Below are positions 1-64,000 of a stretch of 64,000 nt of DNA, piece by piece. Within the stretch, counting starts at the first letter, position 1, and every line of letters begins with the position of its first letter. The notes beneath the pieces were generated by a model. It saw only the letters and a list, made by a program, of their open reading frames with translations, ran no database searches and was not told the DNA's origin. The DNA lies in the NCBI GenBank assembly GCA_019359675.1, contig JAHHGX010000068.1, positions 62,001 to 126,000 on the forward strand. Reading direction: 5' to 3'. The translations under genes were made by a program, and so were the position numbers. The DNA is from Calothrix sp. FI2-JRJ7 (lineage in GTDB: Bacteria > Cyanobacteriota > Cyanobacteriia > Cyanobacteriales > Nostocaceae).

Positions 1-964
1 GCTTACCAGTAGCCAGACTGTGCAAACTGATTGTTTTTCTGTTTGGGTCTTTCTTGGTTGGCGACTCCTGCCACCCACCGATATAGCAGATGCCAAACTT
101 TTTGTGTTTCACAATTGAACCACGTTTAAATCCAGCACTTATTGTTCCACCGTAGCGAGGTCTAATATGACCTTTCTGATGCTGCAATCTATGTAATTGC
201 CTACGGTGGAATTCAAGAGGTATCACTTCTATTAATTTGGTATTGTTTGGTAGCTCAAGTCCATCAACATACCAATTAGCTAACACCCAAGAGTCAACAC
301 AGTGTGCATCAAACTTGTTAGATAACTTGTTCTTTGACTTCTTTAATCCTAGAGATTGACGTAGTTCGTAAGTATCCATTCCTGTTTTAATCTCAAGTCT
401 TGCTAATTTCTCTAATTCAGAATAAAACCACTTTTTTCCAACTTCCGAAGGACTAAACATCACGTTGTGCTTTCTTGCACCCTTCCATGTAGACGCTTTA
501 ATGTCCTCAACCACAAATACAGTGACGGGAAACATCGAAGCTAGTCACGTACAAATACGTAATTTCCACTGCCATCTCGATTTAGTTGATGGAGGTAATT
601 TCTGTTTGTTAACAAGTCTATTCTTTCTGTTTTGGCGACATGGAGTATTGCGAAATCTCCTAGCACGTCGCATGTTACGACGAACTTCTACATGGTCTTT
701 TACCCAATCAACTGCATGAGTCTGTACGTTTAAATAAGTGTGTGCTTTTGACTTAACTGTATACCCTTCACGTTTGCTTCCTGGGTCTACACCAACCGCA
801 ATTGGTTGATAATTCCTATTGCTTGGTTCTACATTTAATCGAACGCAAAATACTCCTTTTCTCCAAAATGGTGTAGCTTTTTTCTGCTTTATCCAACGCC
901 TAGCCCTACTCGGAGTAGTTGGCATTAAGGGACGCTGATTTGCATCTACAACTGGAACAAACAT
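1..964 (-). pseudogene. IscB/IsrB-type RNA-guided nuclease (RRXRR family), interrupted by an in-frame TGA; 3' end beyond window
   Basis: The 5' part (964 down to 545, 139 codons) starts with a PLMP domain (literal PLMP at residues 12-15), then a RuvC-I motif GVDPGS with Asp60 and an arginine-rich bridge helix around residues 95-105 (VRRNMRRARRFR). A TGA at 547-545 ends it. Reading straight on in the same frame gives LASMFPVTVFVVEDIKA, a RuvC-II motif with its Glu, then HCVDSW (RuvC-III) and a C-terminal part with GHIRPRYGG and GFKRGS, open to base 1. No HNH domain lies between RuvC-II and RuvC-III, so the layout is closer to IsrB, known in the family as an omega-RNA-guided nickase, than to IscB. 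Only one stop interrupts it, so the decay is recent, or the stop is read through, or it is a sequencing error. The family assignment is from recalled motifs. Confidence 0.8.
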
Positions 965-1300
965 TTTGTTTAACTATAAATCAATCAGTATTGCTACTAA
1001 TTGTGTGTACATCCCATCGCTACTAACTGTCAGAGAGGTTAAAAACTTGGGAAGCATTCTTAACGTCTCACGGGCTACCACACCCAGACTGTTCAGTTGA
1101 GGTTGTTAACCTCCAAGCTAGACACTGGTTTAATCGCATTTAAAAAGTGGTTAGCTTTTTTCTTGCAAGCTCAGACCCTTCAGGGCTGAGTCAGTGACGT
1201 ATCAAGTGGTACATTCTTCCAGAATGTTTGAAAAGCTCAAAATGCCACGCTGTGTAATCAAAGCTAGAGGTGCTTATTAAGATTCTACTTGAAGTACTAT
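965..1300 (-). ncRNA. Candidate omega RNA (HEARO-like) for the adjacent IsrB-type gene
   Basis: IscB/IsrB proteins use a structured RNA encoded directly upstream of their ORF, known as the HEARO motif or omega RNA. This spacer lies in that place and is rich in hairpins: 1170-1190 (CTCAG/CTGAG outer stem continued by CCC/GGG), 1211-1227 (perfect 7-bp stem ACATTCT/AGAATGT with a 3-nt loop) and a small GGTT/AACC hairpin near 1103-1113. No ORF of note is present. The boundaries are estimates. In this family the guide is at the 5' end of the RNA, which would put it near 1230-1300 on the minus strand. The assignment rests on position plus visible structure, not on a covariance search. Confidence 0.5.
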
Positions 1301-1623
1301 TGAGAATAAGAGTAATTAGAAATTTTGTCAATTGTTTTTAACCCCTCTTAACGATTGTTATTTATCAATTGAATCAATGCTACTAAGTGCCAACAAGCTA
1401 CACAAGTATCATTTACATTGTCTAAATCATTGAAAATCCCTAAATAAAGTGGCAAAACTTCGTATTAATATTTAGGTATCTGTTATTTTAATGTTATAAA
1501 TACTACATATTTAATGAAATGTAATTTATATTAAGTTTTAAATTGAATAATTATTTTGTAGTTCAAGTGATAAATTATGTCAATTAACTGTATTGTATAT
1601 AAGGAGGAAAAAAAATATGAATC
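1301..1623. promoter_or_regulatory. AT-rich spacer ending in a strong Shine-Dalgarno
   Basis: Very AT-rich, no repeat or RNA gene recognised. At 1601-1607 it carries AAGGAGG. This sits 9 nt before an ATG at 1617 that opens a 36-codon ORF, and 16 nt before the ATG at 1624 of the 250-codon gene in another frame, so the ribosome site favours the short ORF. Confidence 0.4.
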
Positions 1624-2376
1624 ATGAGAGGTGTATCAAACAAGTTGACACGTGTTGTAATTCTGAAGTCTTTATTAAGAGCTTATGCGTTGGCTTGCAA
1701 GATTCTTGTTACACTCACAATTATTAGTATCCCCCCAAGAACAATTGCATCTGAACAAAAGTTAGATACGACCATTGAAGCACAACCGCTTCAAACTGAG
1801 ATTACACTGCGGGATTTCAAAATTGTTGAGCAGTTAGTCACCATTGCCCAACGTAACTCCGCTCTTGTTCAAGAGACAAAAGCTGCAATGGGATTAAGCG
1901 CATTTCAAGACATTTTGTTTGTAGAGTTGGCGCCATCTCAAACCACAACAAGTTCTGCGTTACCCGATACTTCATCTGCAAGCGAGCGCAGTTTTTCCGT
2001 TACCATTACAGTAGATCCAATTAAGCTTGTCGGCGCCGTTTCGCTGATTCCAGTTAGAGAAGCTCGTTGGAACGAAGCAAAGCATCAAAAGCGCTTAACA
2101 GTCGTACAAAATTATCTTGCGTATATCCAAGCACGCCAAGTATCAAAAGTCGCTGCCTACCGAATGCAAAAATTTGCTCAAAGCGTGCGTGTTGCAAGCG
2201 TCAACTCCCCAACCTCACCTCCAGAAAAAATTAATCATCTTGCCAATGCCGAATATGTTACAGCAGCTACAGAAATGCTCAACGCGAACGCACGTGAACA
2301 GATAACATTAGAGGAACTCGCAGCTTGTATAGGTTTATCTCCACAACAAACCATAAATATAATCAACGCCCCATAA
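1624..2376 (+). CDS. Secreted coiled-coil protein of unknown function, weakly TolC-like
   Basis: The 250-residue product has a basic N-terminus and a hydrophobic stretch (about residues 14-38) that looks like a signal peptide. The rest is Ala/Gln-rich and helical: about residues 55-100, a Thr/Ser-rich VTITVDP stretch near 120, then a long helix from about 135 and another ending in an Ala-Arg pair followed by EELAACIGLS. This helix-strand-helix pattern recalls half of a TolC/OEP outer-membrane efflux repeat, but it is far too short for TolC. I do not recognise the family. The gene stands alone, downstream of the IsrB element and reading away from it. The start is uncertain because the AAGGAGG fits an ATG 7 nt upstream in another frame better. 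Confidence 0.6.
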   Translation: MRGVSNKLTRVVILKSLLRAYALACKILVTLTIISIPPRTIASEQKLDTTIEAQPLQTEITLRDFKIVEQLVTIAQRNSALVQETKAAMGLSAFQDILFVELAPSQTTTSSALPDTSSASERSFSVTITVDPIKLVGAVSLIPVREARWNEAKHQKRLTVVQNYLAYIQARQVSKVAAYRMQKFAQSVRVASVNSPTSPPEKINHLANAEYVTAATEMLNANAREQITLEELAACIGLSPQQTINIINAP

Positions 2377-2380
2377 ATGT

Positions 2381-6165: not shown

Positions 6166-6383
6166 TTTTTACTAAACCTCTATATTCACCCACGAAACTA
6201 CAATTTAGCAAAATTCCACGCTATGTCCTGCACCATAAAGAAGATTAATAAAAGATTAAGAGGCGCCGATAATGTCACGAGTTGGATGTTTTTAGCTTTC
6301 CCCTTTCCGCTTTCGCCTTTACCCGATAAACTTTTATTGGTCAGTTGAATTTTCACGATTACCCATATTTGAGGAGTACAACT

Positions 6384-6833
6384 TTGGAGCGCACATTCTT
6401 AGCAATTAAACCCGATGGCGTACAGCGTAAGCTTGTTGGCGAAATTATCCGTCGCTTTGAGACTAAGGGTTTTACCCTTGTTGCGCTGAAGTTCATGAAT
6501 GTTAGTCGCGAATTAGCTCAAGCGCATTACGATGTTCACCGCGAACGCCCTTTCTTTGCAAGCTTGATAGATTTTATTACCTCTGGCCCAGTTGTCGCGA
6601 TGGTATGGGAAGGTGATGGTGTTATTGCCTCTGCCCGTAAACTTATCGGCGCCACCAACCCTCTCAACTCCGAGCCAGGTACTATTAGGGGTGACTTTGG
6701 TGTAAATACTGGTCGTAACATCATCCACGGTTCCGATGCTCCTGAAACCGCAAAAAACGAAATCGCTCTATGGTTTAAAGAAGAAGAACTAGTCAACTGG
6801 ACACCTGAAATCAAAGGTTGGTTGTACGAATAA
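6384..6833 (+). CDS. ndk: Nucleoside diphosphate kinase
   Basis: This enzyme moves the gamma phosphate of ATP to other NDPs through a phospho-histidine. I chose the TTG at 6384: it follows GAGGAG (6371-6376) by 7 nt and gives 149 residues, the usual length, starting [12 protein letters not shown]. An upstream TTG at 6345 would add 13 unconserved residues. The signature [12 protein letters not shown] contains the active-site His and the invariant HGSD. FAMily features IRGDFG and the C-terminal WLYE are present. GGCGCC falls inside the IGATN codons. Confidence 0.96.
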
Positions 6834-6919: not shown

Positions 6920-7657
6920 TTATTCTGCAACTTCCTGCTTCTTCAATTCAGGCGCCGTTAAAACTTCTTCTACTACTTCTGGTTCGTTACGTTTAGAGAA
7001 TCCCCACATTAGGATAATCGCAATTGCGCTGATTACAATCCACTGTGGAGGAACAAGCGATTCGTTAATGACTTTGAGAAGTAAGCGTAAACCCACAAAT
7101 GCCACGGTGATATAACCAGCATCTTCTAAATGAGTAAACTCATCCAACCAGCGAATAAATAAACCTGCCATGAAACGCAGGGTGATAACACCAATAGTAG
7201 TACCTGTTAAAACTAACCAGGTTTCCTGACTTACAGCAATAGCTGTTGTAACGCTGTCTAATGAGAACGCTAAATCAGTAAGTGCAATTACCGGAATAAG
7301 CCGTAAAACCGAACTAAACTTGGGACCGTGATGCTGATTTTCTTCGTCTTGCTCTGACGTAAAATGCTGGAAAACTAACCACAGCAAGTAAGATGCACCA
7401 ATTAATTCAAACTGCCAATACTTTTGTACCCAAGTAGCTGTAAGCAGCAGTGTGATACGCAGCACATAAGCTATCACCAAGCCATAGTTAAGAGCTTCTT
7501 TCTCTTTTTCCTTATCGTCAAGCCCTTGGGCAATAGCTGCAAGTGCAATAGCGTTATCAGCAGAAAGCACTGCCTCTAAAAATATCAGCAGTAACAGCAC
7601 GATAGATGCTTCTACGCTGAAATGAAATTGGAGGTTATCAAAAATTCGGTCTAGCAT
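6920..7657 (-). CDS. TerC family integral membrane protein
   Basis: The 245-residue protein has about seven hydrophobic helices. It carries the two acidic TerC motifs: EAVLSADNAIALAAIA in helix 1-2 (about residues 28-43) and DLAFSLDSVTTAIAVS near residue 127. These intramembrane Asp residues are linked to metal (Mn2+, tellurite) handling in TerC/Alx proteins. The C-terminus is a charged cytoplasmic tail rich in Glu. I looked for a yybP-ykoY manganese riboswitch upstream and did not find one. The ion is not predictable from sequence. Confidence 0.9.
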   Translation of the reverse strand: MLDRIFDNLQFHFSVEASIVLLLLIFLEAVLSADNAIALAAIAQGLDDKEKEKEALNYGLVIAYVLRITLLLTATWVQKYWQFELIGASYLLWLVFQHFTSEQDEENQHHGPKFSSVLRLIPVIALTDLAFSLDSVTTAIAVSQETWLVLTGTTIGVITLRFMAGLFIRWLDEFTHLEDAGYITVAFVGLRLLLKVINESLVPPQWIVISAIAIILMWGFSKRNEPEVVEEVLTAPELKKQEVAE

Positions 7658-8108
7658 TACAGTTTCTTGAGTTGAAATAAAAAATTAACACTTAGGGCGA
7701 AATTTATATAAATAGCACTGAAAAAATGCTACTCTCTCCCAGCTTAACCTGTGGTAGTAAATTTATGACATGCGGTTTCCACCATACTTACATGAAGACG
7801 CTCCGGTAGAGACCGAATTAATTCGGTCTCTACTTCTTAAATCTTTGTTAATTAATTAGTTTTGTTTAACCTATTTTTAGGCTGTGTAGCTTCAGCTAAT
7901 GTATAAATTTACTCACATATTAAATAGTAATTGGTAACTTTAACGGCGTTAAATATATATAAAATAAGGTTTATTAAAAAATATTACGCCAAAATTAAGT
8001 CGTCAAAAACTGTAAAAAATATAACTTTAAGGTGATTGGGAACCGTTAGATATTTCTAAGTACGATTATTGGTACATTTAACCGCACTGTGCTTGCTAAG
8101 GAGTGGCA
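7658..8108. promoter_or_regulatory. Divergent intergenic region with a perfect 28-bp palindrome
   Basis: Spacer between terC and the LprI-like gene, which read away from each other. At 7806-7833 is a perfect 14+14 palindrome (GTAGAGACCGAATT and its complement) of the GTAGAGAC family found throughout the window. The rest is AT-rich and must hold both promoters; no clear -35/-10 pair stood out. Confidence 0.5.
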
Positions 8109-8525
8109 ATGGAATTGCTCTTGCGCTGGAATATATTAATTATCATGGGATTTTTATTATCGGAAGTTTATTTTGCACCTGTGGGAGCGCAAACTAAAAA
8201 GCAGCTACCACCCCCGAACTGTAAAGACCCCCAAACAACAAGGGATATGATTGAGTGTGGCGAACGCACCTACAAAGAAGCAAGTAAAAAGCTCAGTTCC
8301 ATAAATAAACAATTGCTGGACAAGGTGAGTGTTAGTCAAAGAAAGCGTTTGGTCGCATCACACCAAAACTGGTTGAAGCATCGTGATACATTTTGTGCGT
8401 TTGAGGCAGGAATGTATGAAGCTGGAACACTTGAACCAACGACACGCATTAATTGTTACGCGCGCATGACAAACGAGCGAAGTCAAGAACTCAATACTTG
8501 GCTAATTGAATTAAATCGACGCTAG
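8109..8525 (+). CDS. LprI-like (DUF1311) secreted protein
   Basis: I start at the ATG at 8109, 5 nt after AAGGAG; a GTG 6 nt earlier is in frame but inside that Shine-Dalgarno. A hydrophobic signal peptide (about residues 5-25, ending near VGAQ) precedes a domain with four cysteines in the LprI arrangement: NCKDP, IECGE, DTFCAF, INCYA, plus the W..HRD pattern and a terminal NERSQEL motif. LprI N-terminal domain proteins are periplasmic; one mycobacterial member inhibits lysozyme. The function here is unknown. Confidence 0.75.
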   Translation: MELLLRWNILIIMGFLLSEVYFAPVGAQTKKQLPPPNCKDPQTTRDMIECGERTYKEASKKLSSINKQLLDKVSVSQRKRLVASHQNWLKHRDTFCAFEAGMYEAGTLEPTTRINCYARMTNERSQELNTWLIELNRR

Positions 8526-8584
8526 TTTTTACTGATTTTAACTCGCCCCAAATACATTCAGCTTTAAAGCTATCTGGGGCGCCA

Positions 8585-9295
8585 TTAACTACACAAAAGT
8601 TCACCTAACCAATTTTCGACTTGTAAGCGCAGACGGCAACCAGCACCATCGTTACTGTTTTGTGAGGTTGGTAGCTTCTCTAAAGCACGACGATAATCGG
8701 CAATAGCCCAATTCCAATCACCCCAAAGATGATAGGTACGTCCACGCTCTGCAAAAATGTGACCCTCGTATTGGTCAAATAACAACGCGCATTCAAAATT
8801 ATCTGTCGCTTCTTCATATCGTCCCAAGTCACGTAGCGTAATTCCACGGTTTATCCAAGCACGCGCATAGCTAGGATTTAAGTCTAATGCTTTGTCGTAA
8901 TCATCCAGTGCTGCCGCTAAATCACCAATTGCAGCGTAATAATTCGCACGGTTATTATAAGCACTGGCTAAATTCGGGTTAAGCTCAATTGCTGTGTTAT
9001 AGTCGCAAATAGCCTTTTGTCTTTCGCCACATTGATAATAAATTAATCCCCGATTATTATAATCAATTGCATTTTCAGGGTGGCGCTGTAAAAGTAAACT
9101 CAACAGTGATATCGCTTCGCGGTAGTCCCCAAGTTTCGCAGAACGCAATGCACAAGAACGTAAGTTCCCATCTCCCACATAGAAATTGTCGTCACTCGAT
9201 GTTTCTTGATGTCGAACCTGGTTTTTTGTACTGGCAACAAACTGGTTGAAGTAGTGTTGCTCATCATCAGATGCGAGAAAAGTGTGAGTATTCAT
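8585..9295 (-). CDS. Tetratricopeptide repeat protein
   Basis: The 236-residue soluble protein carries about five consecutive 34-residue TPR units from residue 45 to 205. Each has the W/N-RG, Y..A...Y..A..L.P consensus (for example YNNRGLIYYQCGERQKAICD and AWINRGITLRDLGRYEEA). A polar 40-residue leader lies before them. TPR arrays bind other proteins; no enzymatic domain is present. There is no signal peptide. It stands alone, and its partner cannot be inferred from neighbours. Confidence 0.85.
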   Translation of the reverse strand: MNTHTFLASDDEQHYFNQFVASTKNQVRHQETSSDDNFYVGDGNLRSCALRSAKLGDYREAISLLSLLLQRHPENAIDYNNRGLIYYQCGERQKAICDYNTAIELNPNLASAYNNRANYYAAIGDLAAALDDYDKALDLNPSYARAWINRGITLRDLGRYEEATDNFECALLFDQYEGHIFAERGRTYHLWGDWNWAIADYRRALEKLPTSQNSNDGAGCRLRLQVENWLGELLCS

Positions 9296-9723
9296 ATCTT
9301 CCTGCCTGCGGTGCTGCTTTGATTGTTGTTGGTTAGTATCGGTACTGCCCCTGTATCAAGAATGAATCTGGTTGTGTGTACGAGGAGGAAGTATCTTTTT
9401 AGAACAGTCACTGCGAATTGACGCGCGTTCATGCTCTAATTCAATTAATGGTCGAATCTATTAATAGATACTTCGTCCCCTGGTTCAATTCCAGAAAAAG
9501 TAAACCTCAATCTGCCAGACTAGGCAAGTGGTGAGAGTTACAGGTTGCTAGAATCCACCTCAAGGATGTATTCGAGCAATTACTCTACAGGGCTTTTAAA
9601 CATTGAGGGTTAAAAGTCGCCTTTCAACCCCTTCGCTTTTATAGTTCCCACCTATAAGCTGGTAGTCTCAATTTTCTGTTAAATAGTTTCTATTTGTTTA
9701 TTAAGTTTTCATAAATTTTTCTT
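9296..9723. other. Divergent spacer
   Basis: This 430-bp stretch separates the TPR gene from the conserved hypothetical gene at 9724, which read away from each other. It must hold both promoters. It includes AATCTATTAATAGATAC (a short palindrome near 9453-9469). I see no RNA gene or repeat-family copy. Confidence 0.35.
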
Positions 9724-10185
9724 ATGTCAGGAACTTCTTACCCCAGCGCACCCGACTTGACTCAAGACGACTATATTGTTCTAGGTTTAGCAACATGCTT
9801 CGTCAAAGAAGAGGGTGAAGTCCATCAAGTCGAAGTTATCGAACCAATACCATCAGCAGCGTTAGAAGCACTAGTTAAAGGAATTCCCACTTCGTATAAA
9901 TTTGCCTGTGGAACAACGCTTGGAAGTATTTTAAGCGGCAGTAACTTTCAAATTCCCTCAGAATTTCCCGAAACTGCTCAATTAAGTGACGAATTCGAGC
10001 AAAGACTGTTCTCTGCTGCGCGTACTTACAAACGACGCGAAAGTGCTAAATCTCTGATTCCTGAAGGTACATGTTACAAAGACTTTCAATACTCCATTGA
10101 CCGTAAGCGTGTACTAAACGCCGCACGAGTCATCACAAAAGACGACAACGTTAAACAGCATCCAAATACCCACAAAATCCTTTAA
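9724..10185 (+). CDS. Conserved cyanobacterial protein of unknown function
   Basis: The 153-residue soluble protein resembles a family I recall from many cyanobacteria. Its landmarks are APDLTQDDYIVLGLATCF at the N-terminus, EPIPSAALEAL, AARTYKRR near residue 100 and the strongly kept C-terminus NAARVITKDDNVKQH. No signal peptide, membrane segment or catalytic motif is visible. Function is unknown. A nested palindromic repeat follows 3 nt after the stop. Confidence 0.7.
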   Translation: MSGTSYPSAPDLTQDDYIVLGLATCFVKEEGEVHQVEVIEPIPSAALEALVKGIPTSYKFACGTTLGSILSGSNFQIPSEFPETAQLSDEFEQRLFSAARTYKRRESAKSLIPEGTCYKDFQYSIDRKRVLNAARVITKDDNVKQHPNTHKIL

Positions 10186-10188
10186 AGA

Positions 10189-10321
10189 GGTAGGGTGCGT
10201 GACGCCATAACAATCGTGAAGTAAAACTAATGTAGGGTGCGTGAAAGCTATTTAAATCTATCAATGTAACAGAATATTAAAATGCTTTCACGCACCCTAC
10301 GAGCGTCACGCACCTTACGAG
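10189..10321. repeat. Two nested palindromic repeats, one inserted in another
   Basis: The outer pair is GGTAGGGTGCGTGACGCC (10189-10206) and GCGTCACGCACCTTACGAG (10303-10321). Between them lies a complete inner element: GTAGGGTGCGTGAAAGCT (10232-10249) with GCTTTCACGCACCCTACGAG (10284-10303). The outer arms match the element at 11671-11744 and the inner matches 2381-2455. The distal end runs into TTAGGAGTTATT, which is the ribosome-binding site of the next gene. Confidence 0.8.
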
Positions 10322-10333
10322 TTAGGAGTTATT

Positions 10334-10885
10334 ATGCTTAAACTATATGCAGGCGCCCGCAGTCGCGCATCAATCGTTCAGTGGTATCTTGAAGAATTGA
10401 GTGTTCCTTATGAGCTAGTCATACTCGACATGGCAGCAGGAGAACATCGTCAAGATGCGTTTTTAGCAATAAACCCGTTTGGCAAAGTCCCAGCAATAGT
10501 AGACGGTGACTTTAAATTATGGGAGTCAGGCGCCATTTTAATGTACCTTGCCGAAAAACACGCAGGAATTACATCAGTAGAAACACGTGCAGTACTTAAT
10601 CAATGGGTATTATTTGGTAATTCAACTTTGGCAACAGGAGTTTTTATCGAAGCAAGCAGAGAAAAAGAAATGCCGCGTTTGATGACGGCACTTAATAATA
10701 TGTTCGAGAAGCAACCTTTTATTATGGGTGACGAATTTACGGTTGCTGATGTCGCTGTTGGCTCTATCCTTTGTTACATTCCAATAATGTTAAAACTTGA
10801 TTTAAGTGCTTACCCAGCAGTACTTGATTATATGAAGCGGATGACCGAACGCGATGGATTTAAAAAAAGTATTGGCGCCCGTTAG
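10334..10885 (+). CDS. Glutathione S-transferase family protein
   Basis: The 183-residue protein has a thioredoxin-fold N-terminal domain (residues 1-75: LYAGARSRASIVQWYLEEL, then INPFGKVPAIVDG and WESGAILMYLAEK, where the ES pair binds the gamma-glutamyl part of glutathione). An all-helical C-terminal domain follows, with FTVADVAVGS, the N-capping box of GSTs. It is somewhat short for a GST. The Shine-Dalgarno AGGAG comes from the tail of the repeat in front. The stop lies in a palindromic repeat shared with the convergent gene. Confidence 0.88.
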   Translation: MLKLYAGARSRASIVQWYLEELSVPYELVILDMAAGEHRQDAFLAINPFGKVPAIVDGDFKLWESGAILMYLAEKHAGITSVETRAVLNQWVLFGNSTLATGVFIEASREKEMPRLMTALNNMFEKQPFIMGDEFTVADVAVGSILCYIPIMLKLDLSAYPAVLDYMKRMTERDGFKKSIGAR

Positions 10886-10945
10886 GCAACGGATATAAAC
10901 GGATGTAACGGATAAGTTGTTCTGGCATCCGTTACATCTGTTGCC
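10885..10945. repeat. CGGATGTAACGGAT palindromic repeat covering two convergent gene ends
   Basis: GGCAACGGAT...CGGATGTAACGGAT pairs with ATCCGTTACATC..TTGCC. A second copy in the opposite orientation lies at 62291-62349. This copy contains the last base of the GST stop and the last codons and stop of the 2Fe-2S gene, so it probably serves both as a terminator. Confidence 0.75.
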
Positions 10946-11567
10946 AATGGTCTTCTATTAGAGATGCAATATCAGTGGGTTTAACTTGGCTGTATTTTTT
11001 ATTACCAAGTTGTACAATACAGTTAGGCGCCTTGGAGCATTTTTTTAAACAGCCAGTGCTTTGAATTTTAACTTTATCTCGCACTTCAGATACTTGCTGT
11101 TGCGATAGCTTGGTTTTACTAAGGGTTTTTTCTATTTTTGATAATAATTCTTTGGCGCCTCGTTTACGACAACCAGAACCTTGACATACCAAAATTTTGG
11201 CTTTTTTTGAACATTCAGGGTTATGGGTAGTGTGTAGGGGTGATTTATTTATAGGGCAGACAGGTAAAGGTATGACATCATATGCTTTGAGCTTGATATC
11301 ACCTGTACTCGTGTGTAATTTACTATAACCGATGACGCGAATGTGGGCGCCTGGTATTAAAGAACCAGAAAGTGCTTTTCGTAATTCTTTAGGAAGTTTG
11401 ATTTTCAAATTTCCGGCTGTAAGTGCGGTAACGGCGTTACACTTGGTTAAAGCAAATTGTAGATATTTGAATTTTTGGGACTTGAATTTTTTGGCATGTT
11501 TGTCTGCAAAACCCAGAAATTCACCTTCAATGTCAAATTCTGATAGTTTGAGATAGTTGTTACCCAT
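10932..11567 (-). CDS. (2Fe-2S) ferredoxin-like protein with thioredoxin fold
   Basis: The 211-residue protein has an N-terminal beta-rich half (residues 1-105) and a C-terminal half with LVCQGSGCRKRGA and TGCLKKCSKAPN. Its cysteines at about 128, 133, 174 and 178 match the cluster ligands of thioredoxin-like 2Fe-2S ferredoxins and NuoE. Cyanobacteria often have such a protein with the same two-part layout. It may act as a small electron carrier; partners are unknown. It lies just downstream of nifVZT on the same strand, but a palindromic repeat and about 185 bp separate them. Its final QQM codons come from a repeat. Confidence 0.75.
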   Translation of the reverse strand: MGNNYLKLSEFDIEGEFLGFADKHAKKFKSQKFKYLQFALTKCNAVTALTAGNLKIKLPKELRKALSGSLIPGAHIRVIGYSKLHTSTGDIKLKAYDVIPLPVCPINKSPLHTTHNPECSKKAKILVCQGSGCRKRGAKELLSKIEKTLSKTKLSQQQVSEVRDKVKIQSTGCLKKCSKAPNCIVQLGNKKYSQVKPTDIASLIEDHWQQM

Positions 11568-11670
11568 TTTAGATATTTAATTAATAGATAGGGGTAGATT
11601 GTAAGTAATATGGCGCCAATAAGAAGCTAAGAGTAATTGTTAAATATGAGCTATTAACTCCTAACTCAGC

Positions 11671-11744
11671 CTCGTAAGGTGCGTGACGCTACGCTCATCA
11701 CTTGCTTCATTTAAAAATTTTTCATAGCGTCACGCACCCTACCG
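11671..11744. repeat. Palindromic repeat, GTAGGGTGCGTGACGC family
   Basis: CTCGTAAGGTGCGTGACGCTA pairs with a TAGCGTCACGCACCCTACC end, about 74 bp in all. It is in the opposite orientation to the outer element at 10189-10321 and lies downstream of nifT, 10 nt from its stop, so it probably also terminates the nif transcript. A lone half-copy sits near 50243-50255. Confidence 0.7.
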
Positions 11745-11753
11745 GAGCGCCTC

Positions 11754-11957
11754 TTAATTTACTCGTCTTGCTTCGTAGGTTTGAGGAATTTTTAGAGGTT
11801 CGGCTAAATTTGAAATCTCTAATTCCCAACCGTTTGCTAAGGTGAAAACTTTACCTGCTTCGGAATCGATTTGTTTGACAACTTCTTCCTCTAGGTCTTT
11901 TTTGGGAACGTAGACTGTCAACTTGCCAGCAGAATTTTCACGCAACATTACTTTCAT
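11754..11957 (-). CDS. nifT: NifT/FixU family protein
   Basis: The 67-residue protein is typical NifT: MKVMLRENSAGKLTVYVPKKDLEE followed by LANGWELEI. It is a small accessory protein of nitrogenase clusters with no firmly proven role. Its ATG overlaps the nifZ stop by 4 nt (ATGA type), so translation is probably coupled. It is the last gene of nifV-nifZ-nifT. Confidence 0.93.
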   Translation of the reverse strand: MKVMLRENSAGKLTVYVPKKDLEEEVVKQIDSEAGKVFTLANGWELEISNLAEPLKIPQTYEARRVN

Positions 11958-12241
11958 CTATTTGCCTCTTTATCTGGATTTTTTTCAATTAGTTCAAGTT
12001 CCTTTTTTTTACACCCAACGACAAACCCTGACTGTAAAAAATGCACTGCGTATATATACGAGCTTTGCAGAAATGTGCCTATACTAACGACGTATCCAAT
12101 TTCTCCCTTTTTGGCAAGAACAGTACCAATTTCTTGACCGGGAAAGGTTCCATCATTTTTTAGAAGCTTACGAGTACGAACTTTATCGCCAATCTCAAAT
12201 TCTGGTGGCGAATGTAGTTCCATTTCATCAGATTGTTGCAT
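11954..12241 (-). CDS. nifZ: Nitrogen fixation protein NifZ
   Basis: The 95-residue protein carries the NifZ core: FEIGDKVRTRKLLKNDGTFPG, GEIGYVVSIGTFLQSSYIYAVHF and a C-terminal VVGCKKKELELI. NifZ is known to help form the second P-cluster of the MoFe protein. It follows nifV by 12 nt and overlaps nifT by 4 nt. Confidence 0.95.
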   Translation of the reverse strand: MQQSDEMELHSPPEFEIGDKVRTRKLLKNDGTFPGQEIGTVLAKKGEIGYVVSIGTFLQSSYIYAVHFLQSGFVVGCKKKELELIEKNPDKEANR

Positions 12242-12253
12242 GGCTTTATACCT

Positions 12254-13363
12254 CTATTTACGTGCTAAATTCAAGAGTTCTTGCGTAGTTAGGCTACGTT
12301 TTTTGTGAGTTGATTCTTGCCGTACAGCGTCTAATACTGTTTGAGTTTCTTCGTGATTTAGGACAATGCCATGCTCTTTTAGCACGTTCATTAGTAAATG
12401 CCGTCCAGAATGCTTGCCAACAACTAGGCGCCGTTCCCAACCAACTTCTTCTGGTGCGAACGGTTCATAAGTGCTGGGGTTTTGTAATACACCGTGGGCG
12501 TGAATTCCTGACTCGTGAGCAAAGGTATTGTCACCCACAATTGCTTTCCAAGGTGGAACGTTGCAACCAGATGCTTTTGCAACTAATCGGGAAAGTTCTA
12601 ACAGTCGGCGTGTATCTATACCCAAGTCAATGCCGTGCAAACGTTTGAGCGCCATTACGACTTCTTCTAATGCAGCATTACCAGCACGCTCACCCAACCC
12701 ATTTACGGTAGTGTTAATTGATGTTGCACCAGCTTTGACACCTACGAGTGCATTTGCTGTTGCTAGTCCAAAGTCGTTGTGGGTGTGCATTTCCACAGGA
12801 ATCTGCAAACCTGTAACAAGTTTTTTAACACGTGTGCAGGTACTAAAAGGGTCAAGTATTCCTACTGTGTCGCAAAATCTAAATCTAGAGGCGCCCCATT
12901 CTTGAGCATATAATGCAACGTCTTGAAGGAAGCATTCATCAGCTCTAGAAGAATCTTCACCACCGACGGCAACCCATAGTCCGTTATCAACAGCATAGCT
13001 GATCGAATTTCTGAGTTGCTGTAACGTTGTACGCCATTGTCCCTGAAATTTAGCTGCTATTTGAACTCCAGAAACAGGTATAGATATGTGAACTCGACGC
13101 AATCCGCACTTTATCGAAGCTTGAATATCAGAAATAACTGCACGGTTCCAGCCAAGCAGTTTAGCTTTTAAGCCAGAATCTAATATTGCGCGAATTGCAT
13201 AGGTTTCTTCCCGACCCATTGCCGGAATACCGACTTCTAGCTCATGAACACCGATTGCATCTAAAAACTTAGCAATCGCAACTTTTTCTTGCAAATTAAA
13301 CGCAACGCCAGCAGCTTGTTCGCCATCACGCAGCGTAGTGTCGTTTATGGAGATTTCGTTCAT
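12254..13363 (-). CDS. nifV: Homocitrate synthase
   Basis: NifV condenses acetyl-CoA with 2-oxoglutarate to homocitrate, the organic ligand of the FeMo cofactor. The 369-residue protein has the HMGL/LeuA-type TIM barrel: [14 protein letters not shown] at the N-terminus with the catalytic Arg and metal-binding Asp, [12 protein letters not shown] with the HxH metal ligands, [19 protein letters not shown], and a C-terminal GKHSGRH segment. It lacks the LeuA regulatory domain, as NifV does. It opens the nifVZT group. Transcription probably rises with nitrogen step-down, but I see no convincing NtcA or NifB-type promoter upstream. Confidence 0.95.
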
Positions 13364-13664
13364 CTAATAAATACCTAATACAATTAACTAACGCATAAAC
13401 TAGTGCATAATTTTGATGATTTTAATAATTTACACATTTATACATATACCTACTGCTATTAATTTTCCTTCGCTAAAGTCTTTATATAACTTTTGCCTAG
13501 TAATAATAATTTATCTGTATACTAACCGACCATAAAGCTAACTATTTATGAATCATTTTTACTTGTATATATTGCAATTTTACTGATTAGTATGTATCAA
13601 ATTAAAATTCTAAAAACCGAGTTCATTAGCGTATAAAAACAATTTCATATATTTTGATGTGTAT
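13364..13664. other. AT-rich spacer upstream of nifV
   Basis: About 300 bp, very AT-rich, upstream of nifV and downstream of the DUF2949 gene, all on the minus strand. It should hold the nif promoter. I searched for GTA-N8-TAC and found only the imperfect GTAGGTATATGTAT on the minus strand. Confidence 0.35.
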
Positions 13665-13865
13665 TTATAACACTTGCTTTTCTAACCAATCAAAAATACG
13701 TGCGAGTTCTTCAATGTTAACCAATCCATATTGCCAAAGTAACATAGGAAAAGGTGCATTTTTTGACTCTGGATGCCTTAGAGCTACTGAAATATCATCT
13801 GTTGACAGGTTAATTTCGTTTTGCAAAAAATGAATTAATTTTGTGTCACTATTACAACTTATCAT
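13665..13865 (-). CDS. DUF2949 family small cyanobacterial protein
   Basis: The 66-residue soluble protein matches the pattern I recall for DUF2949: LIHFLQNEINLSTDDISVALR, then PFPMLLWQYGLVNIEELARIFDWLE. No catalytic motif or membrane segment is present. Function unknown. It lies about 50 nt downstream of the next small gene on the same strand, so they may be cotranscribed. Confidence 0.75.
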   Translation of the reverse strand: MISCNSDTKLIHFLQNEINLSTDDISVALRHPESKNAPFPMLLWQYGLVNIEELARIFDWLEKQVL

Positions 13866-13918
13866 ACTTAACTAAACTCCTCTAATTGCCTCCCGCTAAC
13901 TATTGACCTGACAAAAAG

Positions 13919-14164
13919 TTATAGGCGCCAACATTGTTCAAGCCAATCAATTAAATCGGCTCGATTCGCAAAAAACTGCATCAAAGTGCTACGGACAAGA
14001 ATAGCTGTAAGGACGCTGTTAATATGCACTCGTAACGAACCATCGTCTGGACACCAGCAAGCAATTGTTAACTCTTGTAAGCGATGATAAATTTGCCAAC
14101 GTTCTGCAAACGGAATGTTGATAATTTGCAGCTTTTGATTTCCTAAATGATTCTGTGGAAACAT
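13919..14164 (-). CDS. Small conserved cyanobacterial protein of unknown function
   Basis: The 81-residue soluble protein has INIPFAERWQIYHRLQEL, ACWCPDDGSLRVHIN and a C-terminal RADLIDWLEQCW. These look like a short cyanobacterial family I recall without a known role. It may share a transcript with the DUF2949 gene. The C-terminal WLEQCW resembles the WLEKQ end of that neighbour, which may be coincidence. Confidence 0.6.
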   Translation of the reverse strand: MFPQNHLGNQKLQIINIPFAERWQIYHRLQELTIACWCPDDGSLRVHINSVLTAILVRSTLMQFFANRADLIDWLEQCWRL

Positions 14165-14733
14165 GTCTGATTTGGGAGCGATGTGCTAGTTTTATGCTTA
14201 TATCAGGCGCCTTGAACTAGCTAGCTCAGGACATGCGTGTTAAATTTATTGAACTAATTAATAATGTACTCAACTATCCAAATATATATAAATATAGACT
14301 TAACAAAACTTTAAAATCTTTCTTAGGGTAGGGGCACGAGCATTTATAGAGTGAGGTACTAGATTTTTTGGGGTAAGGGATAAGTATTTTTGCACTCAAT
14401 CTAAAAGTCAGAACCGCCTAAAATCATCATCTTGGAGCCAATTCTTTTTTTAAATCAACTTGTACTCACACATAATCAAGCAATACAAATAAGTAAAGTT
14501 TTGTATATCTAGCCACTCTTCGCCATCATATACCGATATTGACTAGAACATATGATTTCTTTAAGTTGTTTTCAGAAACCCAGAAACCTGGTTTCTTTAT
14601 GAGAGATTAAAGTTTTATTGCAAAATCTACTAGAAACCAGGTTTCTGTAATTTTTTTAACAATAAAATGCTACTAGATGATAAAATCAAGCGGTTTATCG
14701 ACAAAAATTAAAAACTAAAAGGGCTGTGTAAAA
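14165..14733. other. Spacer with an AGAAACC repeat
   Basis: About 570 bp between divergent genes. At 14573-14647 is a copy of the AGAAACC(C/T)GGTTTCT repeat: two arms around an AT-rich middle with TTTTATTGCAAAATC. The remaining sequence should hold the promoter of the HExxH protein; its ATG at 14734 follows AAAAGGG. Nothing else recognised. Confidence 0.5.
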
Positions 14734-16713
14734 ATGGCAGAACAAAGAAAACCTGCGTCTCGAAAAGTTTCCTCTACGTCTAAACCTTCTTCGGCACAAA
14801 AGCGTCCGTTGGCAAGAAGAGCATCAAGTGCCTCGAAGGTTTCCTCGACGGAAAAAAAAACGAAAGAGGCACAAGTTGCTTCTGCCTCAAACGCTTTAGA
14901 TGATGAAGAAGTTATCGCAACAGTTGAAGACACAACCTCTACAACTGAGACTGCAACCCAAGAAGTCTCGGCGCCAACTCAGGAACCTGTCGCAAAAAAG
15001 GCGCCTGCAACTAAATTAATGGGGATGTTTTTACAAGACCCTAGCTTGCCGAAACTAAGAGGTAACTATAAATTTCCTCTAGACAAAGACTATTTAATAG
15101 CAACAGGTTCAAGTCGGTTTACGATTCGAGATACCAATGAAGCTGGAGAACCCGTTTTCGCAAGTCCTGATTGGTCAAAACAAGACGACTTATCGTTTGA
15201 GCATTTCGAGCTTCAGGGTTTAGTAGATAACCCAGCATTCCATCAGGTAAATGTATTTGGTGTATTAAGTCGTACCTTAGATTTAGTAGAAGAAGAAGTT
15301 GGTCATCCCATAGTTTGGAAAGATGGTGGGCCTCTTATTATTCGTCCTCATGCATTTGAAGGGATGAACGCATATTATGACCCAATGAATCCTTCGCTTA
15401 ATTTTGGCTACTTTAATTCTCCGTTCCGACGGGCGCCAGTTTGGACATGTTTATCGCACGATATAGTTTCGCACGAATTAGGACACGCGATTCTAGATAC
15501 CTTCCGTCCTCTATATTTATATAGTAGTGATATTGATGCATCGGCATTACATGAATCTTTTGCTGATATCTTAGCAATGTTCGCAGCACTGCAATATCCA
15601 AGTGTAGTTGAATATATATATAGAGAAACAGGTGGTGATATGCGCCATCCAAGTTTAATTACTCATCTAGCAGAGGAATTTGGTGTAGGTATTTTTGGTG
15701 CAGGTGTACCTTATTTACGTTCTGCACTCGAAGGAGCAAAATATGCTGCTGACACACCTAAAGAACCGCATGTACGTTCAACAATTTGGACTGCTGCGAT
15801 TTACGAAATTATGCAAAAACTCGTCGAAGCTATACAACCAAATGCTTCTGATGATACAGCATCCGGGTTTGCAGGATTTATCGCTGCACTTGTCAAAGCT
15901 ACGCACGTATTAAAAGGAATGCTCATCCGTGCGCTGCATTACACTCCACCAACTTCGTTATCAATGCCAATGTTGGCACGCTTAATATACGAAGCTGACG
16001 CGCGTGTTTATCCTACTGACAGCAAATTTAGAGATATTGCTAAAGAAGTATTTGTCGCGCGCAACTTGTGGAATGAAAAAATAGATTTGAAGGCGCCTGA
16101 TATTGGTAATGTATTTAAAGAGCTACAAGGCGCCGATATACGCACATTAATGCGGGCAGTTGTTCATAACGCTCCGGCATTACGTATACCAGAAAGTGCC
16201 TCACGTTTTCTCAAACCACGTTTAATTACTACCACCCGTCGTATAGACAAAGTAAAAGAAGGCGAAGAAACCACAATCAAAGAAATTACAGAACACTACC
16301 TTGAATATACTTATGAATATTCACAAATGGTGTCAGATTTTCTCTCCGGTGGCATGAGCGCATTTACCGTCTACGGTGGTGGAACCTTAGTAATGGATGA
16401 AAACTGGAACCCCGTTTGTCTCGCAGCTTACCCAGAACCCATACAACAAGACCCAGCAGGCGCCGAAGGAGGCAAAGCGGCATGGAAACGTGTACGTGAA
16501 CAGTTCGATAAAATACACGGAGGCAGCATTCAACGCACACTAGCATCCAAAGACGAAAACCGCAGTCTCAAAGACCGTCCCGTCGTTCCCGGTTGCCCAT
16601 TCGTAATTCAATCAACATCAACAGGAGGATACCGACTAATGCGCCGTTGCTGCAACCTGCACGAACACATCAAAGGCATTTCAGTTAGTCAAAATGGACT
16701 TGCTGACTCGTAA
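14734..16713 (+). CDS. Gluzincin-type (HExxH...E) putative metalloprotease
   Basis: The 659-residue protein opens with a Ser/Lys/Ala-rich, then acidic Thr-rich, low-complexity tail of about 95 residues with no signal peptide. The core has HELGH at 247-251 and a third ligand Glu274 in HESFADIL, the HExxH...ExxAD arrangement of thermolysin-like M4 peptidases. A second domain (from about residue 430) ends with a cysteine pair, RRCCNLHEH. It could be a cytoplasmic protease or one exported by a non-classical route. I do not recognise a characterised orthologue. A strong terminator follows. It stands alone. Confidence 0.7.
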   Translation: MAEQRKPASRKVSSTSKPSSAQKRPLARRASSASKVSSTEKKTKEAQVASASNALDDEEVIATVEDTTSTTETATQEVSAPTQEPVAKKAPATKLMGMFLQDPSLPKLRGNYKFPLDKDYLIATGSSRFTIRDTNEAGEPVFASPDWSKQDDLSFEHFELQGLVDNPAFHQVNVFGVLSRTLDLVEEEVGHPIVWKDGGPLIIRPHAFEGMNAYYDPMNPSLNFGYFNSPFRRAPVWTCLSHDIVSHELGHAILDTFRPLYLYSSDIDASALHESFADILAMFAALQYPSVVEYIYRETGGDMRHPSLITHLAEEFGVGIFGAGVPYLRSALEGAKYAADTPKEPHVRSTIWTAAIYEIMQKLVEAIQPNASDDTASGFAGFIAALVKATHVLKGMLIRALHYTPPTSLSMPMLARLIYEADARVYPTDSKFRDIAKEVFVARNLWNEKIDLKAPDIGNVFKELQGADIRTLMRAVVHNAPALRIPESASRFLKPRLITTTRRIDKVKEGEETTIKEITEHYLEYTYEYSQMVSDFLSGGMSAFTVYGGGTLVMDENWNPVCLAAYPEPIQQDPAGAEGGKAAWKRVREQFDKIHGGSIQRTLASKDENRSLKDRPVVPGCPFVIQSTSTGGYRLMRRCCNLHEHIKGISVSQNGLADS

Positions 16714-16747
16714 ACTGTGTGGTCTTTATTTAATACTTCTCTTGTGG

Positions 16748-16767
16748 AACGGCTGTCCCCAGCCGTT
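16748..16767 (+). terminator. Rho-independent terminator
   Basis: AACGGCTG and CAGCCGTT form a perfect 8-bp stem with a TCCC loop, followed by ATTTTGTAT, 35 nt after the stop of the metalloprotease-like gene. A second hairpin, GGGCG-AGGA-CGCCC, lies at 16849-16862 towards the convergent hydrolase gene. Confidence 0.7.
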
Positions 16768-16905
16768 ATTTTGTATAATTAGTCCATATTTTAGGCAGCG
16801 AAAACTAAGCAAACATCCCAATATACAATCCACCGGTGGTAAAACGACGGGCGAGGACGCCCATCGCACAAGAGAATTATCCCACAATAAAATATCCCAT
16901 AAGAC

Positions 16906-46639: not shown

Positions 46640-47257
46640 ATGATGCAAGTTTTATCCATCCAGAATAGTGCAACTACCTTTTCAAAGCTGTCTCAAGGCA
46701 AACTCATAGTCTTGACAGGTCCAAGTGGAGTTGGCAAAGGCACACTAATGCGGACGCTACTCCAGCGTCATCCAGAACTATATTATTCTGTTTCAGCAAC
46801 TACGAGGGCGCCTCGCCCAGGCGAAATAGATGGCAAACACTACCATTTTATCGAGCGTAGTAAGTTTGAACAATTAGTTGCTCATGGAGAATTTTTGGAG
46901 TGGGCTGAGTTTGCCGGAAATTATTACGGCACTCCTAGACAAGCTGTACTTAACCAAATAAATGCAGGTAAGTGCGTAGTGCTAGAAATTGAATTAGAGG
47001 GAGCGCGTCAAATTCGTACTTCTTTTCCAGAAGCCAAGAGCATCTTTATTTTGCCTCCTTCGCTCACCGAACTAGAAAACCGTATACGCGGTCGCGGTCA
47101 AGACCCCGAAGAAGCAATTAGGCGCCGTTTAAATCGTGCCCACGAAGAAATTCAAGCCGCAGACGAGTTTGACGTTCAAATTGTCAACGACGATTTTGAA
47201 GCTGCTTTACAGTCAATTGAAACTGCCCTGGATAGTTTCGTCAATTGTAAACAATAA
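46640..47257 (+). CDS. gmk: Guanylate kinase
   Basis: This enzyme makes GDP from GMP and ATP. I start at the ATG at 46640; a TTG 24 nt upstream is in frame and would add eight residues. The 205-residue protein has the P-loop GPSGVGKGT, the GMP-binding [12 protein letters not shown] and [10 protein letters not shown], and the lid [15 protein letters not shown]. It follows remA by 188 nt and ends 22 nt before a hairpin. Confidence 0.96.
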
Positions 47258-62555: not shown

Positions 62556-62583
62556 AATATATCACAATTGAACAGTTATTCAA
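62556..62583 (-). promoter_or_regulatory. Metallothionein promoter with overlapping SmtB/ArsR-like operator
   Basis: On the minus strand TTGAAT (-35) and TATATT (-10) are 16 nt apart and lie about 35 nt before the ATG. The palindrome TTGAACAGTTATTCAA (62568-62583, plus strand) covers the -35 and spacer. It resembles the TGAACA-type half-sites recalled for SmtB. Confidence 0.6.
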
Positions 62584-62662
62584 GTGTTGTACAAAAAAGT
62601 TATAGTTTCTTTGTGTTCGGCAATGTGAACATTCTTTGAAATGGCGCCCTTTCTACATCACT

Positions 62663-63025
62663 TTATTGCCCGCGCGCTTTGTGGTTGAGCGTTAAAGCCT
62701 TTATTGTTGCCGTAGTAAACAGTTTTGAAATCAAGTTGATTTGTGTTGGGATTGTAAATTGTGTAACTTGCTTGTCCTGGGGTTCTACCGACGTTTCCGA
62801 CTCGATTTCATCAGTGTTAATACGTTTATCTTTATACTCAGTAATAGCCCGATCTCCTACCACCAATCGCATTGGTTCCAAAACCTTACCACCATTCAAA
62901 CGCGGTGCAGTGCGTCCGGCAACGAGCAATCCCTTGTCAGTATTGTGATGCAGAACCCGACCAAATTTAGCAAGGTACTCGCGACACACGCAATGTTTTT
63001 CATCGTGCCAAGCCACCTGTAGCAT
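62663..63025 (-). CDS. Protein of unknown function
   Basis: The 120-residue product starts MLQVAWHDEKHCVCREYLAKFGRVLHHN and has GLLVAGRTAPRLNGGKVLEPMRLVVGDR, which reads like a real folded domain. The C-terminal 50 residues are polar and then basic. Cys12 and Cys14 could bind metal. I do not recognise the family. Overlapping ORFs on the other strand look like shadows. Confidence 0.5.
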   Translation of the reverse strand: MLQVAWHDEKHCVCREYLAKFGRVLHHNTDKGLLVAGRTAPRLNGGKVLEPMRLVVGDRAITEYKDKRINTDEIESETSVEPQDKQVTQFTIPTQINLISKLFTTATIKALTLNHKARGQ

Positions 63026-63638
63026 CAGACCGATTTTCGCTCACTTTTACCTATACTTCTAGACGACCCATAACAATCTTAAACAAAGCTACATTACCTA
63101 GAAATGAGTTACTAAAAATTTCAAGCAGACTATCCAGACATCAGAGAGAGTGTATTCTAAAATAGAAGAACTTGTTTTGAGTAACTAGGACAAAACAAAA
63201 ACATTTTACATTTGAAACGACCGCCTAATCTCATTGGTTGTTCCTGGTGCGAAACTCAAAAACGTTATGGGGATTAGCATACATTAAATTATTGTTATCG
63301 AGAGAAACCGACCAAGAAAAGAAATAATTACAACTCTTAACATTAAATCGACTACCTTTAAAAACTGGGACTAATGTCAGTTGAATGCAAGCGTATATAT
63401 AAGAACAGCAATTGGCTAAGTATTTCTCTCACAGTATAATAAAATCCCAACAGAAAAGTAGGCGGATTATTACTACGATTGCACAGTATTATTTTTTACA
63501 TATACATATGCAAGCTCAAAGTACTATATCAGCAACAATTGTTTTAATACTGCTCGGCTATTGACTTATGTTTTGCGAATCGAGAGTTATACCCTTAAAC
63601 TGTTATGGTATAAACCATTAACAGTAACTCATTAATTA
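63026..63638. other. Spacer upstream of the last gene
   Basis: About 610 bp, AT-rich. No repeat-family copy, GGCGCC or RNA gene recognised. The promoters of the two flanking divergent genes must be here. Confidence 0.35.
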
Positions 63639-64000
63639 ATGCGCTCTCGGCAAGATATTCCAGAAATATTCGCGACTTTCCTACAGTTTGAGACTGATTA
63701 CTTCAGTGGCTGGGTATGGGATGCAAAGTTGCGTCGCAGTATCCAGAATTGCTTGCTCAAATGCCCTCAAGACAAATCTGAAAATTTTTGGGCTGTTTAC
63801 TGGCACAAATCCTGGCTGACTGAGCCAAACTCTATAAATATGGGGCATTTATCTGCTTACTTACAAGAAAGCTGTTATTGGGCAGCTAAAAGAACGATGC
63901 CTCAGTTTGCTAGCGTGCAGTGTAGTTTGTCTGATTGTTTCCAAATTGCAATTGCCTCTGTCCCCAAAATTCTCAAAGCTTGTGACCCCGACTTACAGGC
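63639..64000 (+). CDS. Sigma-70-like protein, N-terminal part (runs off the window)
   Basis: An open frame from the ATG at 63639 runs to the end of the window (120 codons): MRSRQDIPEIFATFLQFETD, then WDAKLRRSIQNCLLKCPQ, FWAVYWHKSW, HLSAYLQESCYWAAKRTM and LSDCFQIAIASVPKILKA. This resembles from memory a cyanobacterial family annotated as sigma-70-like with a diverged region 2. The remaining part is outside the window, so sigma regions 3-4 cannot be checked. The role is unknown. Confidence 0.5.
   Translation, partial: MRSRQDIPEIFATFLQFETDYFSGWVWDAKLRRSIQNCLLKCPQDKSENFWAVYWHKSWLTEPNSINMGHLSAYLQESCYWAAKRTMPQFASVQCSLSDCFQIAIASVPKILKACDPDLQ

Follow-up and report, generated by a model that had tools for sequence, protein, structure and literature searches.

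Highly iterated palindromes (HIPs) are GC-rich palindromic words which recur about 1,000–2,000 times per Mb throughout a genome. HIP1 (GCGATCGC), found in genes as well as in spacers, is linked to orphan methyltransferases, namely GATC and CGATCG enzymes. GGCGCC has been described as an alternate HIP in Calothrix PCC 7103 (Elhai, 2015; PMC4390886), and the paper credits the strain with two methyltransferases for GRCGYC, a CGATCG methyltransferase gene that is damaged and possibly a nuclease for GATC. The second GGCGCC case given there, strain D253, matches PCC 7103 by 94% in shared fragments, and exceptional HIPs are described as occurring sporadically and not in clades. The present analysis deals with GGCGCC in a stretch of 64,000 bases from Calothrix sp. 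FI2-JRJ7 (hereafter the window), in the complete source genome (G000) and in its relatives. GGCGCC is the alternate HIP of one heterocyst-forming cyanobacterial genus, in which it replaces HIP1. The phenomenon itself is not new, as the word has already been published as a HIP for a congener. New are its distribution as a genus trait, an orphan methyltransferase (MTase) of the GRCGYC type in all seven genomes of the genus, a C>T signature at the third base, the non-persistence of losses and the saturation of possible sites. Searches of the open-licence literature turned up no subsequent study of the word in these organisms.

The window (GC content 40.0%) contains 110 copies of GGCGCC with a mean spacing of about 580 bp, compared to about 4.1 expected by composition. 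The original prediction, which had counted about 110 by eye against 4–5 expected, was thus exact in its number, and HIP1, which it had not seen, is indeed absent (0 copies of GCGATCGC and 0 of CGATCG by count). C follows 110 of the 122 GGCGC pentamers. A maximal-order Markov model derived from the window's own 5-mers, which themselves sit inside the site, predicts 55.7 copies. The palindromes, read on both strands, begin at the following window positions:

1929, 2032, 2685, 3079, 3538, 3991, 4420, 4634, 5605, 6262, 6648, 6951, 8578,
10352, 10529, 10874, 11026, 11154, 11346, 11612, 12427, 12890, 13924, 14206, 14970, 15000, 15432, 16092, 16129, 16459,
17294, 17617, 17855, 18619, 19317, 19466, 19550, 19708, 21987, 22576, 22929, 23506, 25208, 25449, 25579, 26241, 26531, 26766,
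27239, 28430, 28478, 29064, 29458, 29794, 29859, 30027, 30812, 31610, 31774, 32316, 33241, 33847, 35186, 35705, 36146, 36500,
36705, 37752, 39337, 39848, 40295, 41300, 42884, 43408, 43610, 44467, 44601, 45639, 46330, 46807, 47121, 47262, 47403, 49638,
49893, 52384, 52571, 53369, 54784, 54927, 55664, 56005, 56220, 56808, 57820, 58011, 58278, 58505, 58839, 59101, 59241, 59774,
59819, 59921, 60805, 60904, 61344, 61504, 62205, 62643

Four sites within genes had been singled out as examples. Genes and codon phases were correct for all of them, and two coordinates were displaced by one base (murI had been placed at 37751 and gmk at 47122):

6648 to 6653, plus strand, in ndk (open reading frame (ORF) 6345–6833; PF00334): phase 0, GGC GCC, Gly-Ala
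37752 to 37757, plus strand, in the glutamate racemase gene murI (ORF 37126–37992; TIGR00067): phase 2, xxG GCG CCx, Ala-Pro
41300 to 41305, plus strand, in hetZ (ORF 40945–42135; NF037963, without a Pfam match): phase 1, xGG CGC Cxx, Arg
47121 to 47126, plus strand, in the guanylate kinase gene gmk (ORF 46616–47257; PF00625): phase 1, Arg

The claim that GGCGCC occurs in genes and spacers and in all three codon phases also applies to 539 sites over 344 kb, of which 264, 89 and 116 fall into the three phases and 70 lie outside ORFs; the ORFs used for this purpose and for the synonymous and non-synonymous classes below were called mechanically.

In the complete genome of G000 (8,663,394 bp, 91 contigs) 14,889 GGCGCC sites were counted, i.e., one per 582 bp or 1,719/Mb, which is a density of the HIP class. 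The reversed control CCGCGG occurs eight times, and HIP1, with 31 copies, is rarer than its own reversed control (51). A 544-kb sample of G000 comprises 891 sites against 31.5 by composition (28-fold), and in an order-3 model of this sample the z value of GGCGCC tops those of all 4,096 hexamers (1,782 copies vs. 272.6 expected, both strands counted). Composition and Markov models were rejected as cause of the count, since neither type predicts it. The proposal that another iterated palindrome has taken the place of HIP1 therefore withstood the whole-genome count as well as the Markov test on the sample, and HIP1 is scarce in the rest of the genome too. In the sample, the remaining GRCGYC words are depleted, with 16 GACGCC and 12 GGCGTC (48.6 expected each) and six GACGTC (75.0 expected).

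The genome thereby resembles PCC 7103 and D253, for which PMC4390886 gives the same word, a similar density, near-absent HIP1, depletion of GATC, CGATCG and the other GRCGYC words, and GRCGYC-type MTases. The account given here differs from theirs in that all seven genus genomes are covered, a methylated base is indicated and the dynamics of loss and restoration were measured. With HIP1 the word shares the hyper-iteration, the GC-rich palindromic form, the occurrence in genes and spacers and the link to orphan methyltransferases, but the word itself is different, and the enzyme is a 5-methylcytosine (m5C) MTase of the GRCGYC type.

GGCGCC is also found on stretches from secondary contigs, which are probably plasmids, with 1.25–3.67 sites per kb (L031, L054, L049, L056, L061, and L038). 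It is unusually dense in L038 (G063:C3:328000-340000; 3.67 per kb) and in L070 (G000:C22:14001-34000; 2.35 per kb). Several further palindromes are strongly avoided in the window and the 544-kb sample: GATC was found 163 times (1,936 expected), GGCC 154 times (815 expected), and CCATGG, GCATGC, GTGCAC, GTCGAC, and TGCGCA not at all (75 expected each). Such extreme avoidance suggests many past or present restriction systems.

For the distribution of both palindromes, 217 genomes of the family were compared, seven from the genus of the window and 210 others. The genus comprises, besides G000, Dulcicalothrix desertica PCC 7102 (G060), Calothrix PCC 7103 (G061), HK-06/NIES-2101 (G062), NIES-4105 (G063), the metagenome-assembled genome C42_A2020_038 (G064) and PCC 7716 (G065). 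Each of the seven carries 7,475–20,380 GGCGCC sites (1,150–1,719/Mb), whereas the other 210 genomes reach at most 111/Mb. HIP1 shows the mirror image, with 31–163 copies in the seven genus genomes and at least 1,117 in 206 of the 210 others. The four exceptions (G182, G184, G191, and G194) have 30–990 HIP1 and 1–326 GGCGCC sites; within this family the alternate HIP thus occurs only where HIP1 is low or absent. These four genomes are poor in HIP1 without being rich in GGCGCC, and they may possess other alternate HIPs or none. Moderate GGCGCC densities of 106–111/Mb were detected outside the genus in G084, G034, and G071; in G084 the control CCGCGG is as frequent as GGCGCC (1,270 against 1,053), and composition may be the cause there. 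The HIP1 sites remaining in the genus are partly clustered, as in PCC 7103, where eight lie within about 7.6 kb (G061:C7:654281-661928). Such clusters possibly mark DNA recently acquired from HIP1-rich cyanobacteria and could then serve as a marker of foreign DNA. Strain D253 may belong to the same clade as this genus.

The way in which sites are lost was analyzed in three blocks of G000 (around contigs C68, which includes the window, C79, and C31), aligned to the relatives with G000 as anchor. A total of 168,378 columns was common to G000, G060, G061, and G065, and GGCGCC present in at least three of these four genomes was regarded as a majority site. The 309 majority sites showed 95 one-base losses, each in one of the four genomes, and 12 multi-base changes. 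Among the one-base losses, 68 were third-base C>T changes (GGTGCC/GGCACC), 14 were transitions at the outermost base, five affected the second base and eight were transversions. C>T changes at GG[C]GCC (68 of 618) clearly exceed those at other xGCGCx (38 of 668) and at other GCG positions (113 of 2,707), and under a flank rule GG[C]GCC (68 of 468) ranks first of 1,015 contexts (p = 1.4e-14). The excess is present at synonymous (24.1% vs. 15.3%), non-synonymous (5.7% vs. 1.4%), and non-coding positions (21.2% vs. 5.6%). Such a spectrum is what a 5-methylcytosine in third position of GGCGCC should leave behind, and the MTase described below as 0a would be the enzyme methylating this base. The other three GRCGYC words provided at most five aligned positions each. 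T>C changes at GG[T]GCC are raised as well (3 of 13 vs. 106 of 3,070 at other G[T]G; p = 0.009). An assembly or base-calling artefact of a single platform is unlikely, as third-base C>T singletons appear in all five genomes (site/other 0.023–0.053). They are 4.2 times more common at synonymous than at non-synonymous positions, which is not expected of sequencing errors; the control ratio is higher (10.5), so that a small contribution of errors, or of relaxation of another kind, is possible. In the same three blocks GG[Y]CCA is hypervariable in both directions (C>T 4 of 6, T>C 7 of 12), with examples scattered in unrelated sequences.

These frequent losses do not persist. In a deep comparison, for which G063 (13% divergent) served as outgroup to the four clade genomes and positions were counted on both strands, GG[Y]GCC showed eight deep and 25 terminal changes, compared to 1,717 and 735 at all other C/T positions (odds ratio 0.137, p = 9e-8), which ranks it first of 27 contexts with at least ten changes. 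Positions at which the four clade genomes share T while G063 has C are absent, compared to 164 with C throughout. The deficit of deep changes is found at synonymous (8/20 vs. 1,338/531 deep/terminal, p = 4e-6) and non-synonymous positions (0/4 vs. 202/126, p = 0.02), and the non-coding counts are 0/1 vs. 177/78 (p = 0.3). Because it holds at synonymous positions, selection at the protein level was rejected, in agreement with the earlier suggestion that the force acts on DNA. Pairwise C/T discordance at GG[Y]GCC is flat, with 0.055–0.113 among the five close genomes (5–7% divergence) and 0.068–0.115 against G063, whereas at other G[Y]G it climbs from 0.067–0.088 to 0.198–0.224 over the same range. 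In pairs with G064 (36–44 positions each) it amounts to 0.111 to 0.220 and stays below that of other G[Y]G (0.263–0.320) in all six pairs. One-base losses off the third base are likewise short-lived (5 deep and 8 terminal vs. 142 and 47 for other all-GC hexamers, p = 0.008). Six GGCGCC gains were found where 1.37 are neutrally expected (p = 0.003), two of them from GACGCC/GGCGTC. Multi-base replacements, in which the hexamer comes to differ at several bases, concern 13 clade sites and six G063 sites. With all changes counted, G063 shares 82 of the 107 sites (77%) that are fixed in the clade of four, which indicates a slow site turnover. As third-base losses are frequent yet short-lived, something seems to keep GGCGCC actively.

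The strength of this force can be read from the codons which are one synonymous step from the word. In the 544 kb of G000, the codon that completes the word accounts for 410 of the 455 GGY GCC contexts (GGC), 208 of the 236 xxG GCN CCx contexts (GCG) and 142 of the 148 xGG CGN Cxx contexts (CGC), so that 88–96% of these opportunities are GGCGCC. The codon log-odds relative to matched contexts are 4.7–5.1 at positions 4–6 and 3.6–4.4 for the third-base C/T states; in the six relatives they range from 3.0 to 6.1, and 80–98% of the synonymous opportunities are used, with G064 lowest. In 17 loci of other cyanobacteria (149 kb) the same opportunities were used in 0 of 22 cases, although avoidance is expected there because all 17 loci surround a GRCGYC-type MTase. 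If the log-odds are taken as scaled coefficients of selection or conversion, and equilibrium is assumed, the force would be about 4–5 per site, and the lower third-base values would fit a mutation rate raised about two- to fourfold at this base. The spacing of the sites is near random, with a coefficient of variation of 1.00, 27 gaps above 2 kb (32.6 expected) and a variance/mean ratio of 1.08 in 5-kb windows. The gaps deviate from an exponential distribution (Kolmogorov–Smirnov p = 0.034) through a shortage of those below 100 bp (below 50 bp 35 vs. 70 expected), and beyond this shortage neither evenness nor periodicity was found. The number of sites thus seems to be limited by where the protein permits GGCGCC and not by distance.

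The PF00145 search of the seven genus genomes (METHYLTRANSFERASE) followed by protein clustering yielded 16 m5C clusters, and only clusters 0 and 3 are represented in all seven genomes. MTase 0a of cluster 0, encoded on contig C79 of G000, has one open orthologue in each of the seven genomes (79–99% identity) with a dN/dS of 0.03–0.14 (15 pairs from six genomes, G062 left out). Its match to PF00145 (E = 9e-66) identifies it as a C5-cytosine methyltransferase, and its alignment contains the m5C methyltransferase motifs PCQ and ENV. A RuBisCO-like gene adjoins 0a in six of the seven genomes and an S-layer/GHL10 gene in five, whereas the HK-06 copy adjoins dnaB instead; neighbor identities are based on one scanned member per cluster, and the flank in G000 covers 1.5 kb. 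Compared with full-length relatives from other genera within the family, 0a shows 58–72% identity. Relatives of 0a elsewhere adjoin a gene whose cluster was seen in 65 loci (some genomes counted twice), and all four members of this cluster that were scanned were RE_HindVP (PF09519; E 7e-128 to 1e-156). HindVP cuts GRCGYC. The nuclease occurs in the same genome in 37 of the 50 non-genus genomes with a full-length 0a relative and in 43 of the 217 genomes of the family, and in none of the seven genus genomes, which therefore lack a complete HindVP system and leave 0a as an orphan enzyme of the GRCGYC type. Although 0a is homologous to enzymes mostly accompanied by RE_HindVP, it thus differs from HindVP-type restriction-modification in the missing nuclease and in GGCGCC being enriched instead of avoided. 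The solitary methyltransferase that the original prediction had anticipated is accordingly present as an enzyme able to cover GGCGCC, but its GRCGYC type is not strictly specific for that word. Additional cluster 0 copies exist in some genomes. PCC 7103 has two on separate branches (57% identity), which fits Elhai's two GRCGYC enzymes in this strain. The cluster 3 family (about 370 amino acids; L027, G000:C31:280296-281378, and orthologues) is the second m5C family present throughout the genus.

Taken together, we consider it rather probable that an orphan MTase marks the word, that the third C is thereby hypermutable and that a directional force restores GGCGCC. In detail, the m5C MTase of the GRCGYC (HindVP) type would methylate the third base of GGCGCC; the methylated C, judged by the comparative signature, would mutate to T faster than other Cs; and a directional force on the whole word, as the statistics of losses and gains show, prevents losses from persisting and favors new sites. 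The force itself may come from biased repair or gene conversion which, in polyploid cells, is tied to the methylated word.

Several points speak against this explanation. The 95 terminal losses stand against six gains, and taken alone they let GGCGCC appear in decay; they probably represent losses that are young or still segregate and will not reach fixation, but at face value they remain adverse. The deep comparison comprises 33 site changes and a single outgroup genome, and the one-base counts exclude multi-base differences (19 deep, 1 terminal). An MTase of the 0a type is not sufficient, as none of the 13 among the 50 non-genus carriers that are without RE_HindVP exceeds 43 GGCGCC/Mb. All 13 have at least 1,751 HIP1 sites, which is in line with Elhai's idea that the loss of HIP1 opens the way. 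Outside the genus, MTase carriers show a weak and unspecific tendency to avoid GGCGCC (p = 7e-4, control word p = 2e-4; 50 genomes with and 154 without the MTase, six with fragments dropped; within-genus shuffles 153 of 5,000), and MTase presence was rejected as a predictor of avoidance because the control word behaves alike. The GRCGYC specificity of 0a is suggested by homology and neighboring genes, and another enzyme, e.g., the cluster 3 m5C MTase, could be the one that matters. Finally, repair bias and weak selection give the same numbers here.

Whether HIPs are kept by function or as by-products of repair is discussed both ways by Elhai (2015; PMC4390886). For the force in this genus we give an even chance to a bias of repair or gene conversion that, in polyploid cells, is directed by the methylated word; such a bias would explain the link to an MTase together with the lack of a positional pattern. 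Next comes weak selection on individual sites because the word serves some function (in segregation, recombination or strand signaling, or for a nucleoid protein), under which losses would be slightly harmful and rarely fix; we regard it as a serious, though not the likelier, candidate. The short life of losses at the third and the other positions agrees with it, as do the similar log-odds across positions and genomes, and the frequent, non-persisting terminal losses resemble deleterious polymorphism. About 15,000 near-randomly spaced sites, in all codon phases, outside genes and on secondary contigs, however, suggest no positional function, and we know of no GGCGCC-binding protein, although no search for one was made.

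The ratchet as published in Elhai (2015; PMC4390886) assumes a G-meC-dependent mismatch repair which keeps mutations creating GGmeCGCC, up to about one site per kilobase. An orphan GRCGYC-type MTase throughout the genus, the indicated third-base methylation that the model needs and gains above neutral expectation, two of six from the predicted GACGCC/GGCGTC, are all in its favor, and sites lost in one genome have somewhat nearer neighbors (median 144 vs. 203 bp, p = 0.026). In this form we nevertheless consider it doubtful: the near-random spacing is without the evenness expected of a distance-limited process, there is no obvious reason why third-base losses should arise often and then vanish, the required MutH analogue is hypothetical in that paper itself, and the seven genus genomes contradict the remark, made there in its support, on a lack of clade persistence among exceptional HIPs.

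A DNA-uptake signal, by which preferential uptake and recombination of GGCGCC-bearing DNA would restore mutated copies as a molecular drive, appears improbable. Short-lived losses and few one-mismatch copies are predicted by such a drive (argument in PMC1939737) and were both seen. Like the uptake sequences of Haemophilus and Neisseria, GGCGCC is short, very frequent, seldom present with one mismatch and kept against mutation; unlike them it is palindromic, tied to a methyltransferase and near-randomly spaced, and this spacing gives the uptake explanation no support. Moreover, a 6-base palindrome every 600 bp discriminates little per fragment, and no uptake data for these strains turned up in a literature search. 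Even less credible is a fossil of a past burst, decaying by deamination. Plain decay was first read from a loss-to-gain ratio of 26 to 1, and the terminal branches by themselves fit it (95 losses vs. six gains; 32 vs. 1 where G063 agrees); it was dropped after the deep comparison, since third-base losses do not accumulate with divergence, fixed T is absent from the clade where G063 has C, and a high density is kept in all seven genomes. Very-short-patch repair by Vsr, turning GGTGCC into GGCGCC, would account for the raised T>C rate but is least plausible of all, since losses at the other bases do not last either and a search for Vsr (PF03852) gave no match in the seven genus genomes and one among the 217 of the family (G165), a search that did not extend to T/G-specific glycosylases or distant Vsr relatives.

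The genus represents a clean test of HIP upkeep, as it combines a replacement HIP with seven genomes of graded divergence, a measurable loss pressure and a measurable restoring force. The occurrence in all seven genomes contradicts the published argument against clade persistence of exceptional HIPs, and the loss spectrum supplies comparative evidence for the methylated base, which the ratchet model presupposes but had no means of testing. At the same time, the methyltransferase alone is shown not to be enough for GGCGCC iteration. As the culture-collection strains PCC 7102 and PCC 7103 are among the seven, decisive experiments are feasible. On a tentative and more general level, HIPs might be methylation-addressed words under drive: the MTase mark would render the word hypermutable, biased word-level repair or conversion in polyploid cells would restore it with about 4–5 scaled units, and a genus would switch its HIP by switching the MTase that sets the address. 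If this is true, HIP drive would correspond, in bacteria, to a biased gene conversion whose address is a methylated motif.

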